Of a stretch of DNA of 56,809 nt, positions 35,562-43,610 are shown in pieces; positions within the stretch are counted from its first letter, which is position 1, and each line of letters begins with the position of its first letter. The position numbers and the translations under genes were made by a program. This stretch comes from an uncultured Elusimicrobia bacterium (GTDB lineage: Bacteria > Elusimicrobiota > Elusimicrobia > Elusimicrobiales > UBA9959). The stretch lies in the NCBI GenBank assembly GCA_903889965.1, contig CAISZM010000049.1, forward strand, positions 1 to 56,809, in the 5' to 3' direction. The notes under the pieces were generated by a model. It worked only from the letters and a program-made list of their open reading frames with translations, searched no databases and was not told the DNA's origin.

Positions 35562-35913
35562 GGGGGTGAATAGGTTCGACGTTAACTTGTGTTGTCAGAT
35601 CAGCAGGCCATGGTTGACCAGGCCATGTAAAACAGGGTCAAAAACATAAAAGCCAACTCCAACGAGATGGCCTGGGCGCACGCTTAAGTGTGCCTCGCTC
35701 GCAGACTGCCGCCCGCGCGGAATGTAGAGCGTTACAATGCGGGATGCTGTTTTTTGGGGCGCGCTTCGTCCCTGGAAGACAAAAGACTAAACGGAGCTTG
35801 TCCGGTACTTGTCGCCCTGAACTTAGTCCGGACGAGACACACTCGGGGCTAAGCCTGTAGCGGTTCTGCCAAGCAGTTTACGGACCCGGGTGCGAATCCC
35901 GGCACCTCCACCA
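35562..35913 (+). ncRNA. ssrA: transfer-messenger RNA (tmRNA)
   Basis: 352 nt. The 5' end GGGGGTG pairs with CACCTCC near the 3' end, which closes with CACCA; the T-arm (GGGTGCGAATCCC) and the 5' AATAGGTTCGACG match tmRNA. It rescues stalled ribosomes with SmpB. The tag frame starts at GCC 35652 after ACATAAAA and reads ANSNEMAWAHA to the TAA at 35685-35687. The usual ending is ALAA or a similar hydrophobic end, so AHA is unusual. A GAAA-loop terminator follows. Confidence 0.93.
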
Positions 35914-39066: not shown

Positions 39067-40872
39067 ATGCGCCCTTTTAATGACAGCGTGATATATTTTG
39101 CGGTCGTGGACCGCTTCTCGAACGGAAATCCTTCCAACGACAACGGACGGAACCCCGAGGCTTACGACGCTTCCCGGAGCGACTGGTTCAAATACTGGGG
39201 CGGCGATCTTAACGGGGTGGTGGATAAAATAGACTATATAAAGGAGCTGGGCTGTTCCGCCTTGTGGCTGACCCCGCTTTTCGACCAGATAGACGGGCTG
39301 GTGGACGTGGAGGGACGCGGCATGGCGGGTTACCACGGCTACTGGGCGAAGGACTTTAAGCGCCTGGACGAACACCTGGCCGGCTCCCCGGAGGACGTGC
39401 GGGTTTTCGCCTCAAGCGACACCATCTTCGACCGCATGGTCGGCGAGATGCACCGCAGGGATATGCGGCTGGTGCTGGACATAGTCTGCAATCATTCAAG
39501 CCCGGCGCAGCGGCCCGACATGGGGGGGCGGCCCGTCAAAGGCGAAATTTACGACGACGGCAAGCTGCTGACCTCCTACGAAGACGACAAGCTCGGCTGG
39601 TATCACCGCAACGGCGGAGTGAGCGACTGGGGCAACAAGGCGCAGGTGGAGGGCGGGGAGCTGTGCGGCCTGGCGGATTTTAACGAGTCGCGCATAGGGT
39701 ACCGCACTTACATAAAAGACGCCATTAAATTATGGCTGGACAAGGGCGTGGACGCGCTGCGCGTGGACACGGTAAAGCATATGCCGTTCTGGTTCTGGCA
39801 GGAATTCGTTTCCGACATGCTTTTCCACAAGCCTGACCTGTTCATTTTCGGCGAATGGTTCCAGGGGGGCTGTTATGACGGCCTCTCGGTACAGTTCGCC
39901 AATAAAAGCGGGATGGGTATGCTGGATTTCGCGTTGCAGCGCGCGCTTGAGGATGCGCTTGCCCGGGGGGCCGGCGCGGGCTTCGAGCTTGTGGATAATG
40001 TTTTCGCCATGGACCCGCTCTTCGACGACTGCCGGCATCTGGTGACCTTTCTGGATAACCACGACATGCCGCGCTTCATGTCGGCGGGGGCCACTCCCGC
40101 GCGCCTTGAAATGGGCCTTGCGCTTATACTCACCTGCCGCGGCACGCCGTGCGTGTATTACGGCACCGAACAGTACCTCCACAACGACACCAACGGGGGG
40201 GGCGACCCTTACAACAGGCCGATGATGGAAAAATGGGATACCGGCACGCCGGCTTTCCTGCTTATAAAAAAACTGGCCGCCGTGCGCAAGGAGAACGCGG
40301 CGGTGCAGAGCGGCAGCCACCGTGTGAAATATCTTTCCAAGGACATCTACGCCTATACCCGCGTTTACGACGGCGACAGCTGCCTGGCGGCCTTCAACCG
40401 CGGGCCGGCGGCGGAGATAGCGCTGGAAAATGTCGAGTTCCCGGACGGGGTTTACCGGGATGTTATTTCCGGCCGGCAGATTTCCGTTAAGGGGGGGCGC
40501 ATAGAGAGCCTTCTGCTGGCGCGCGACACCTCTTTGGTTCTCTCGTACTGCGCCCCGGCGCCTGCCGGGTCCGGCCTTGAAATCTCCTTCCTTCTTAACG
40601 GCTTCCGCACCGCGTACGGGCAGCGCGTGAAGGTTACGGGCAACTGTCCTGAGCTGGGCAACTGGGACTTGTCTAAGGCCTTCCCCCTCGAGTACATAAA
40701 CGATAATCTTTGGCTCGGCCGCCTTACCCTGAAGGAGAGCGCCGGCGGAGCTATCGCGTATAAATTCATCGTGGAAAGGGACGGGGATGGCGTCCTGTAT
40801 GAAAACCGCCCCGCTCATTTTCGCCATCTGCCCGGGGACGGGCGTATGGAACTGCAGCACCGCTGGAGCTGA
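39067..40872 (+). CDS. GH13 alpha-amylase with C-terminal CBM20
   Basis: 601 residues. The (beta/alpha)8 catalytic domain shows all four regions: VLDIVCNHS, ALRVDTVKHM with nucleophile D234, IFGEWF with acid/base E263, and FLDNHDM with D330. The N-terminus begins directly with the catalytic domain (SVIYFAVVDRFSNGNPSNDN) and has no signal peptide. A starch-binding CBM20 covers about 495-600 (SFLLNGFRTAYGQRVKVTGN, CPELGNWDLSKAFPLEY). A cytosolic glycogen or maltodextrin role is more likely than secreted digestion. Its GAGGA site precedes the ATG 11 bases after nnrE. Confidence 0.93.
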   Translation: MRPFNDSVIYFAVVDRFSNGNPSNDNGRNPEAYDASRSDWFKYWGGDLNGVVDKIDYIKELGCSALWLTPLFDQIDGLVDVEGRGMAGYHGYWAKDFKRLDEHLAGSPEDVRVFASSDTIFDRMVGEMHRRDMRLVLDIVCNHSSPAQRPDMGGRPVKGEIYDDGKLLTSYEDDKLGWYHRNGGVSDWGNKAQVEGGELCGLADFNESRIGYRTYIKDAIKLWLDKGVDALRVDTVKHMPFWFWQEFVSDMLFHKPDLFIFGEWFQGGCYDGLSVQFANKSGMGMLDFALQRALEDALARGAGAGFELVDNVFAMDPLFDDCRHLVTFLDNHDMPRFMSAGATPARLEMGLALILTCRGTPCVYYGTEQYLHNDTNGGGDPYNRPMMEKWDTGTPAFLLIKKLAAVRKENAAVQSGSHRVKYLSKDIYAYTRVYDGDSCLAAFNRGPAAEIALENVEFPDGVYRDVISGRQISVKGGRIESLLLARDTSLVLSYCAPAPAGSGLEISFLLNGFRTAYGQRVKVTGNCPELGNWDLSKAFPLEYINDNLWLGRLTLKESAGGAIAYKFIVERDGDGVLYENRPAHFRHLPGDGRMELQHRWS

Positions 40873-40882
40873 GGGAGATATT

Positions 40883-41299
40883 ATGAAACTTAAAGAACTT
40901 ATGCGGGAGGTCGTACACGGGGAAATGGACGCCATTTCCATCTACGAGGAGGAGGCGGAAGTTTTCGCCTCGCATCCGAAATACGGAACCGAGATCAGCA
41001 CCCTGTTCGGCAGGCTCGCCCTGGAGAAGCGCGAGCGCCTTAAGGCGCTTGGGAGCATCCTCAGGCAGCCGACGGGCTTCAGGGAGCGGGATACCAAGGC
41101 CGCGCGGTCCATCGAGGCGTCCCTGCGGGCGCATGTTACGGCCGAGGAAATATGCGTGGCAAATTTTGCCGAACTTGTTAAACAGCTTAATAAGCCGGAA
41201 TTCAAGGAAACAATAGCCGCCATGCTCAGCGGTTCGCGCGCGCACCTGGCCGCGATACGCGGCCTCCAGAACCTCATCAAAGGCGTCCCGACGAAATAG
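40883..41299 (+). CDS. ferritin-like (rubrerythrin-type) four-helix protein
   Basis: 138 residues from the ATG at 40883; an upstream in-frame start lies within the amylase gene. The helices carry Glu/His spacing of rubrerythrin-like diiron proteins: HGEMDAISIYEEEAE, EKRERLKALGSIL, HVTAEEICVANFAELVK and SRAHLAAIRGLQ. The canonical EXXH pairs are not all obvious, so metal binding is uncertain. It ends the sppA-started run. It could act in oxidative stress. Confidence 0.7.
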   Translation: MKLKELMREVVHGEMDAISIYEEEAEVFASHPKYGTEISTLFGRLALEKRERLKALGSILRQPTGFRERDTKAARSIEASLRAHVTAEEICVANFAELVKQLNKPEFKETIAAMLSGSRAHLAAIRGLQNLIKGVPTK

Positions 41300-41349: not shown

Positions 41350-42096
41350 TCAGACTTTTAAAACCGCGGAGAGTTTTTGCGAGAGTTCCGCGAGGTGTTC
41401 GCGGATGCGCGGCTGTTTCTTTTCCAGGAGGGGGAGGAGGGTTTTCCTTATCCAGTTGCGCCTGTAATGTTCGTCTTCGTTCGTGTGGTCCTTGCGCGAC
41501 CGCAGATCATTAGCTTTGATGTACGCCTCAATATCCTTGCGCGAGACCGCCAGCATAGGCCGTATCAAATCCACCTTGAACTTCCCGCGGCACAGGGGCC
41601 GCCTTACCGGGATCCCCAGCAGGCCCCTCGGTTCGGTGCCGCGCAATAAATTTAAAAGGATGGTTTCCGCGTGGTCGTCAGAATGGTGCGCCGTGGCGAC
41701 AAGCCGGCATTTGTGCTTAAGCGCAGTTTCGGCCAGCAGGCCGTAGCGGGCCCCGCGGGCCGCGTGCTCGATGCCGGTGCCGCTCTTCTTCGCCAGCCGC
41801 TTGACGTCGGCGGAAAGGATAAAGGTCTCAAGTCCGTATTCCCCTCCCAATTTCCGCACGAAAGCGGCGTCGGCGTCGGCTGCCTTGCCGCGCAGCTTAT
41901 GGTTCACGTGGCAGACGCAAAGCCTGAGCCGCATGGCGCGCGCCTGTCCCGCGAAAAAATCCAGCATCGCTACCGAGTCGGGACCGCCCGAAACCGCCAG
42001 CAGTATGGAGTCCCTGTCGGAGAACAGGCGCAGGCGGCGGGACTCCGCCGTAATGTGGTTCCACAGGCTCAGCGTAATAGATTTCCTTGAGGGCAT
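41350..42096 (-). CDS. tilS: tRNA(Ile)-lysidine synthetase TilS (short form)
   Basis: 248 residues. It converts C34 of the CAU tRNA-Ile to lysidine so that AUA is read as Ile. The PP-loop is SGGPDS (36-41); VNHKLRGKAADADAAFV, GIEHAARGARYGLL and TAHHSDDHAETILLNLLRG follow. The protein ends soon after the core domain (RRNWIRKTLLPLLE), lacking the C-terminal domains of the E. coli enzyme, as in other short TilS proteins. TATAAT ends six bases before the ATG and no Shine-Dalgarno is present. Confidence 0.95.
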   Translation of the reverse strand: MPSRKSITLSLWNHITAESRRLRLFSDRDSILLAVSGGPDSVAMLDFFAGQARAMRLRLCVCHVNHKLRGKAADADAAFVRKLGGEYGLETFILSADVKRLAKKSGTGIEHAARGARYGLLAETALKHKCRLVATAHHSDDHAETILLNLLRGTEPRGLLGIPVRRPLCRGKFKVDLIRPMLAVSRKDIEAYIKANDLRSRKDHTNEDEHYRRNWIRKTLLPLLEKKQPRIREHLAELSQKLSAVLKV

Positions 42097-42108: not shown

Positions 42109-42217
42109 CCAAACGGCGCCGGTCTGTCTGCCCCGCGACCTTCATTCGCCGTATTTTCAAGCCGTTACCTTTGTAAAAATATGATTCCTCATGAGTTTAA
42201 TGTGGGTACGGGCCAGT

Positions 42218-42326
42218 CATGGGATTGCCCTTACGCCGCGTAGGAAACCCTCCCGTGGTTTCCCCCCGCATGGGAAATGAATGCGGGGGCCCCCCATCCG
42301 CTATGCGGCTCCAGGGCAAACCCATG
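42218..42326. repeat. cloverleaf-like palindromic element, copy A
   Basis: Ends GGGATTGCCCT/AGGGCAAACCC form an outer stem. Inside are three hairpins: GGAAACC/GGTTTCC (7 bp), CCCCCGCAT/ATGCGGGGG (9 bp) and CCGC/GCGG. Its sequence is related to the reverse complement of copy B. Confidence 0.85.
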
Positions 42327-42416
42327 CCTGTCCCTCCCGTTTTCGTGTTTCCCTACCAACAACGAATCATGAAGCGATTGGTAATCAAATCGCAGTAGGT
42401 ATATCTTTAGAGGGAG

Positions 42417-42534
42417 GGTGGGTGATTACCCTGAGCGCCCGTTGCGGAAAGGGGGGCCCCGCCGTCATAGTCTGGCGGGGGGAAACCGACGCAAGGGTTT
42501 CCTCTTTCCGGGCGAGCAGGGTAATCACCCATCC
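42417..42534. repeat. cloverleaf-like palindromic element, copy B (inverted)
   Basis: Outer stem GGGTGATTACCCTG/CAGGGTAATCACCC is perfect over 14 bp. Inner stems match copy A when reverse-complemented (GGAAACC/GGTTTCC, CCCCGCC/GGCGGGG) with added compensatory arms (CGCCCG/CGGGCG). The 90 bases between A and B hold a GCGATT...AATCGC palindrome. After B, a GCTGACCG/CGGTCAGC pair (about 42549-42621) precedes GATATTTTTT. No gene is seen between 42109 and 42660. Confidence 0.85.
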
Positions 42535-42660
42535 GACCCCACGGTGTGGCTGACCGCATGCCCGACGCCTCCATACCCTCGTCAGGACCCGCAACCCCTC
42601 AGTCTTACCGGTCAGCGATATTTTTTATCTTTTCGTCCTAAAACGCAAGAGTGCATAAAA

Positions 42661-42697
42661 AAATAGGCCGCCGGAACTTCGGCGGCTTATTTTTTTA
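42661..42697. terminator. bidirectional terminator
   Basis: GCCGCCGGAACTTCGGCGGC hairpin with T runs on both strands (TTATTTTTTT plus, TATTTTTTT minus). It ends the minus-strand gene at 42711. Confidence 0.85.
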
Positions 42698-42710: not shown

Positions 42711-43610
42711 TTAATACGGCTCGCGCTGGCAGTAGGCGTGGGTGTATACCGCGTCGTTCTTCGAGGGGTAGGCTACAAGGTCGTTGCCGATCGCTACGCC
42801 CTTTTCGAACATTCCTTTTGTTTCAGCCATGTGGTAAGTGTAGGGATACTTGCTGGCGTACGGCTTGCAGAGTTCCTTCAGGAAGCCTTCCGGGCTGCTG
42901 TTGTCTATCCTGTAAGTCCTGCCTCCGGAGCGCAGGCGCAGGGATTCGAATTTGACGATAGCCGTTTCCACTACGGGGGCCCCGCCTACGATTTCGGCGT
43001 CGCTGCCGTCCTGAAGCCTGAGGCGGAGGAGAACTGTTTCCCCGCAGCTCTTATCCTGTTTCCACACGGAGCCGTTGGGGACCAGGTATTCTATTATGTA
43101 TCCCTTGGCCGGTATCAGGTCCAGCCCCACCCCGCCGCCGCCGGTCGAGGTCCGGGTCAGGCTGTAGGAAAGTATCGCGTAACCCTGGGCTTCAAGGCTC
43201 ATTATCACTTTCCTCATTTCATCTTCCGCGTTAAATACCTTTACTCCTGAGATGACGCGCGTCGCCTTGCCGTCACCGCCGCGGTAGAACAGCCGGCTGT
43301 AAAATCCGCCCGCTATTACGGTGGTGGGGTTAACATCGGTATAACCGAGCCTTACAAAGGTTTTGGCGAGGGTGTTACCGGACGCCGCAGCTTCGGCCTC
43401 GGTGCTGAAAGGACCGGCATCATGGTAATACTGCCCCGCGGGCAGGACGGCTTTCTGTTCGGCCGCCGCGGCCGCTCCGGCCTCGGGAACCGCCGCGGAA
43501 GCCGCAACCTGCGGCCCGGCGGATAAATTAAGGTCTTCCTTGGCGGACCGCGCATTGGCTGCCGCCGCTCCTGAAACCAGCAACACCGCAATGGCTAGCA
43601 AGTGTTTCAT
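42711..43610 (-). CDS. secreted protein of unknown function
   Basis: 299 residues from the ATG at 43610, where AAGGAG and a signal peptide (MKHLLAIAVLLVSGAAAANA) coincide; longer in-frame starts lack both. An Ala/Glu-rich linker (about 28-60) precedes a domain (about 65-290) with strands such as TFVRLGYTDVNPTTVIAGGF, VKVFNAEDEMRKVIMSLEAQ and VETAIVKFESLRLRSGGRTY. Two Cys near the C-terminal half (KSCGE, ELCKP) could form a disulfide and a third lies at the end (YCQRE). The family is not recognised. Confidence 0.75.
   Translation of the reverse strand: MKHLLAIAVLLVSGAAAANARSAKEDLNLSAGPQVAASAAVPEAGAAAAAEQKAVLPAGQYYHDAGPFSTEAEAAASGNTLAKTFVRLGYTDVNPTTVIAGGFYSRLFYRGGDGKATRVISGVKVFNAEDEMRKVIMSLEAQGYAILSYSLTRTSTGGGGVGLDLIPAKGYIIEYLVPNGSVWKQDKSCGETVLLRLRLQDGSDAEIVGGAPVVETAIVKFESLRLRSGGRTYRIDNSSPEGFLKELCKPYASKYPYTYHMAETKGMFEKGVAIGNDLVAYPSKNDAVYTHAYCQREPY

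Follow-up and report, generated by a model that had tools for sequence, protein, structure and literature searches.

Inverted cloverleaf palindromes upstream of tilS in an Elusimicrobia genome probably belong to a MITE-like mobile family

Two cloverleaf-like palindromes, here called A and B, that lie upstream of tilS in an uncultured Elusimicrobia bacterium are probably head-to-head inverted members of a family of non-autonomous, MITE-like mobile elements, moved in trans by a putative DDE-type transposase. They were found in the window, i.e., the whole stretch of 56,809 nucleotides that was analysed (contig CAISZM010000049.1). What was observed directly is the dispersal of the copies, their presence or absence at orthologous sites, copy-specific outer stems whose arms covary and, in one species (G006), 8-bp target duplications at inverted ends. 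A unit measures ~125-170 bp, and one of its strands folds into a long outer stem (P1 and P2) around the hairpins P3 and P4; units stand alone, in head-to-head pairs or as hosts of other small palindromes in their hairpin loops. In the proposed mechanism, a DDE-type transposase would act in trans and read the element ends, while the folded strand may protect or present the element, or work in mRNA. The two-sided changes in the stems would result from selection for pairing, perhaps aided by arm-templated correction.

Both elements are flanked by minus-strand genes: on one side a gene (41350-42096) that its sequence motifs suggest to be tilS-like, on the other a predicted gene (42711-43610); genes were called with a home-made hexamer model, which missed one ORF of the window (40787-41299). 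A and B are ~75% identical over ~83 bp, in inverted orientation. As DNA, A folds with a z-score of -5.3 on both strands and B with -7.1 on the plus and -6.2 on the minus strand, none of 200 shuffles being as good; RNA folds agree (z overall -4.3 to -7.1). The preliminary description of the window had proposed a pair of related, inverted elements, each with three inner hairpins. The pair, its inversion and its folding beyond chance hold, whereas the folds show two inner hairpins per element, the GC-rich P3 and P4 (GGAAACC/GGTTTCC), and reach beyond the ends first proposed, 42218 and 42534 (Table 1). It was correct that the GGAAACC/GGTTTCC and CCCC-rich inner stems are common to both elements and that the outer stems differ yet remain paired. 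The heads (GGGAGGG..., each on its own strand) are turned towards one another, with the tails on the outer sides, as is also the case in the composites L094-L098 of G014. Relatives of A in its own genome include L003 and L008, and sequence similar to the possible tail to the right of B, itself a weak assignment, also trails B-type copies at L016 and L018. A pseudoknot between TTGCGG and the CGCAA of the P4 loop is unsupported, as these partners hardly vary together in the alignment of B copies described below. Elsewhere in the window, a strong inverted repeat with a T/A run (42656-42697) separates the pair from the gene at 42711 and resembles an intrinsic terminator, and a tmRNA gene with the tag peptide ANSNEMAWAHA is present at 35562-35913.

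Table 1. Coordinates of the A/B pair and its parts in the window
Feature	Position	Strand	Details and basis
Element A, cloverleaf palindrome, A subtype	42210-42334	minus	head 42334, tail 42210; fold and own-genome relatives
A inner hairpin P4	42243-42263	minus	arms 42243-42249 / 42257-42263; plus-strand fold
A inner hairpin P3	42264-42288	minus	arms 42264-42271 / 42281-42288; plus-strand fold
Linker joining the heads of the two elements	42335-42411		head-to-head pair
Element B, cloverleaf palindrome	42412-42539	plus	head 42412; fold and covariation, 46 copies (row L160)
B conserved TTGCGG strand, linking stem P2 to hairpin P3	42442-42447	plus	alignment A2
B inner hairpin P3	42457-42480	plus	arms 42457-42463 / 42474-42480; alignment A2 and covariation
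B inner hairpin P4	42481-42502	plus	arms 42481-42487 / 42496-42502; alignment A2 and covariation
Right of B, possibly a degenerate tail or a piece of another unit	42540-42601	plus	weak

The elements are members of a dispersed family. In the genome of origin (87 contigs, 2.24 Mb), a query of 381 bases matched 66 times at E <= 10 and marked ~30 separate places at E <= 1e-4, matches less than 1 kb apart having been merged by hand. B matches 22 of the 41 genomes compared, all of them incomplete metagenome-assembled genomes (MAGs): 22 of the 25 of the same genus, the genome of origin (G000) included, and none of the 16 of the order's other family. Among the 80 records listed of 116, the named genome records bearing the 24-base core are MAGs of Elusimicrobia, Elusimicrobiota or Elusimicrobiales, with SKS1.bin123, binned only as bacterium, as the sole exception; the core matched no viral contig. 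Beside the A/B/C type there is a second core family, the U type (GGAACGCAAAAC...GTTTTGCTAACC), which also folds as a cloverleaf and occurs singly or head to head with B or another U. The loci fetched when this type was defined gave 240 hits, corresponding to 178 distinct core copies. Only 1 of 82 B copies and 4 of 86 U copies fall within a predicted gene, the rest being intergenic. In the literature on Elusimicrobi combined with palindromic repeat or miniature inverted-repeat transposable, no title or abstract opening describes these repeats, and nothing came up on MITEs in connection with IS66.

The family is mobile, as filled and unfilled orthologous sites, together with the inverted ends and 8-bp duplications of G006, demonstrate. 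Upstream of tilS, the element is present only in its own genome, the relatives at the other 27 of the 28 loci being without it. The gap between pheS and pheT (30 loci, L190-L219) contains a U unit in 14 cases, one of them inverted, and none in 15, with a remnant in G016. Filled and empty sites are also paired at L029 (own genome) and L227 (G003, empty), and at L113 (G012) and L144 (G014, empty). Duplicated pieces were additionally seen in the pheS-pheT gap of G018 (L216) and G020 (L200).

In G006, the B core is located within an element of ~165-173 bp with inverted ends, GTAACYRCTCAGG. Such GTAAC-type ends were found 167 times, compared to 10 for a reversed control pattern (one mismatch allowed). 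They bound 35 intervals, the flanking 8 bp being identical in 10 and matching at seven positions in 4. At least four of the 35, namely L060, L062, L277 and the longer L298, are spurious or overlap. Seven of the 10 intervals with perfect duplications hold a cloverleaf and three are core-less derivatives of 58-81 bp. End types differ between species: the GTAACYRCTCAGG ends have no match in the genome of origin, and target duplications, also considered for the CTTTGGG-type ends of other species' pairs, are absent there and not recognisable at the window copy. CTTTGGG-type ends (L095, L236) frequently lie directly against a neighbouring gene's stop codon. The ends known from G006 recur in G046 (L440, L442, L443, L445; GTAACTACTCAGG), where they surround unrelated palindromes, including ones of the GTCATTCCCGC type, and for this reason the ends and cloverleaf of G006 may either descend as a single unit or have been combined. 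Altogether, the many dispersed copies in this and related genomes, the filled and empty sites and the duplications of G006 give good support to a mobile palindrome of the REP or MITE type, as suggested in the preliminary description.

The outer stems are copy-specific: their spelling differs per copy while self-complementarity is kept, and they nevertheless carry family-wide motifs. Arms are readable in 73 of 82 B and 66 of 86 U copies. Alignment A2 contains 46 hand-chosen rows from these 73 B copies, a few of them orthologous; over its 1711 cells in 38 pairs, 97.9% are paired compared to 82.7% after shuffling, and sliding the partners reduces pairing to only 39-58%. Two-sided changes are found in 24 pairs and amount to 230 cells, against 47.5 (sd 6.7) in shuffled alignments. 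Replacing a B copy's own arms by those of other copies costs ~21 kcal/mol (-57.5 versus -36.4), the own arms being in the best 5% for 64 of 73; for U the loss is ~13 kcal/mol (-41.2 versus -28.5), with 45 of 66 in the best 5%. Among 28 copies of G006, the arms have 15 two-sided and 40 one-sided changes, where 1.56 two-sided ones are expected; five of the 15 come from the divergent L070 and one change is common to three copies. A covariance model, R1, was set aside because its automatic structure was poor. These results support the selection for structure that had been deduced from the pair itself, and arm-to-arm templated correction could add to the covariation.

Wobble pairs distinguish the strands. 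B copies have 47 G-T and 13 A-C cells on one strand, whereas U copies, in the orientation used, have 49 A-C and 6 G-T, which places the bias on the opposite strand from B; for both types the favoured strand is the head-to-tail strand. Wobble and pairing cells are not independent, as related copies hold them in common. With orthologous copies kept in and the pheS-pheT loci L191-L219 left out, single copies of B are oriented sense to co-directional flanking genes in 36 cases and antisense in 9; single U copies show no such bias (13:12). At pheS-pheT, scoring was possible for 11 of 14 U copies, in which 175 of 198 cells pair, compared to a shuffled mean of 157 and maximum of 168.

Given the sense bias of its single copies, the B type may have an RNA role. 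The elements might even be, in the first place, a structured RNA family in mRNAs, processing, stabilising or attenuating transcripts between operon genes, spread by transposition and kept for its function. The strong covariation, the G-T excess and sense orientation of B, and the retention of orthologous pheS-pheT copies with stems that still pair would all be accounted for. However, U singles are unbiased and rich in wobbles on the other strand, the pheS-pheT copy is missing in half the species, the B counts take in orthologous copies, and no Rfam family reaches its gathering threshold at 42210-42539; we regard this explanation as possible but doubtful. Still, that 14 species retain U in the pheS-pheT gap and that single B copies are biased 36:9 points to more than selfish DNA.

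The search for a mobiliser covered IS66 (DDE domain and TnpB_IS66) and Y1 transposases. GTAA ends with 8-bp duplications are associated with IS66, which was therefore considered; it was dropped, as its DDE domain is absent from 32 of 32 genomes and TnpB_IS66 from five of five. Integron attC sites were considered and dropped as well. Among 112 GTAAC-type ends, 75 lie within 250 bases of a core, 14 are accompanied by a short partner and 12 run into a contig end; at the 11 others, 200 bases each were inspected and show no evident transposon. No coding element was found between GTAAC-type ends in these loci. Y1 genes (PF01797), in turn, occur in 27 of 32 genomes of the genus and are absent from the MAGs, incomplete as these are, of the genome of origin, G003 and G016, all of which are rich in copies. 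Target duplications such as those of G006 are not generally expected of Y1 enzymes. Given these absences and duplications, the RAYT mobiliser suggested in the preliminary description is not supported.

This bears on whether the elements are of the REP/REPIN type, moved by Y1 (RAYT/IS200-like) transposases via single-stranded DNA. REPs are GTAG- or CGTC-tagged palindromes of 20-40 bp, intergenic and present as singles and inverted pairs (PMC3733652). The cloverleaves are likewise palindromic, intergenic, and single or paired in inverted orientation, their wobbles are strand-specific, and most genomes of the genus encode Y1. In contrast, with ~110-170 bp the A/B family is 3-6 times the length of a REP and has two inner hairpins, so that it differs from REPs in both length and fold. 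Combined with the Y1-free, copy-rich genomes and the target duplications of G006, this makes such an origin very unlikely. Other hairpins in the genus are REP-like, namely GGGGACAG.. (L163, upstream of tilS) and GGTGCCAG.. (L283, L315), and are possibly linked to its Y1 genes.

Palindromes are frequently nested within these elements. Several own-genome copies have inserts of the type GTGGAC...GACACTGTAG in the P4 loop (L005, L010, L012, L029) or P3, and nested insertions within P3 were found at L016, L026, L283 and L315; in the two G006 copies among these (L283, L315), P3 contains a long GGTGCCAG-type hairpin. A piece of ~46 bp with GCTATGC hairpins occurs in C-type copies (L022-L025) and in G006 (L270, L283, L288, L302); it appears as a separate mobile piece that enters the cloverleaf at different points. 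One could therefore ask whether it is only the cores that enter palindromes already in place, by insertion or by gene conversion, in which case the outer stem would be part of the target and the mobile unit would lack it. Apart from the nesting, G014 has near-identical U cores inside differing, self-complementary outer stems, and at pheS-pheT the species differ in their inner cores but have orthologous outer arms. However, the empty sites (the 15 pheS-pheT loci, L227 and L144) show no simple pre-insertion palindrome, in G006 the ends, stem and core move together, and the outer stems carry family-wide motifs, which together render this explanation unlikely. A further reading, speculative and rather unlikely, is a lineage-wide system of palindromes within palindromes, in which mobile cores would repeatedly be captured in or delivered to hairpins and outer stems matched by arm-templated correction, their structure persisting as their sequence drifts freely.

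Several known systems come close to the A/B family. Like bacterial MITEs, the A/B family is short, non-coding, intergenic and dispersed in multiple copies, and in G006 it has inverted ends and target duplications; unlike these, it folds as a cloverleaf with a copy-specific covarying stem, its end types vary by species, and no parent insertion sequence was found among IS66 domains or in the loci around GTAAC-type ends of these incomplete MAGs. MITEs usually have an autonomous parent with matching ends, although it has not been identified in every case. ERIC or RU-1 sequences are 127-bp intergenic imperfect palindromes of enterobacteria, conserved at some orthologous sites. The cloverleaves resemble them in all these respects, as far as a comparison by description goes, and differ in having two hairpins within a variable outer stem and in nesting. 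Palindromes inserted within one another and spread through intergenic DNA are also reported for Volvox organelles (PMC2670323); the present ones share this habit but reside in a bacterial chromosome, as GC-rich cloverleaves with strong stem covariation and target duplications.

The cloverleaves are a new, elaborately folded form of an already known kind, the gene-less mobile palindromes. If the system of palindromes within palindromes were true, it would form a parallel, in bacteria, to the nested palindromes known from organelles. The family also counsels caution, as strong covariation alone is no proof of a functional RNA. With many copies in more than 20 species, it offers a large natural data set on whether selection or templated correction keeps the arms matched, and on how gene-less palindromes move without a transposase in sight.
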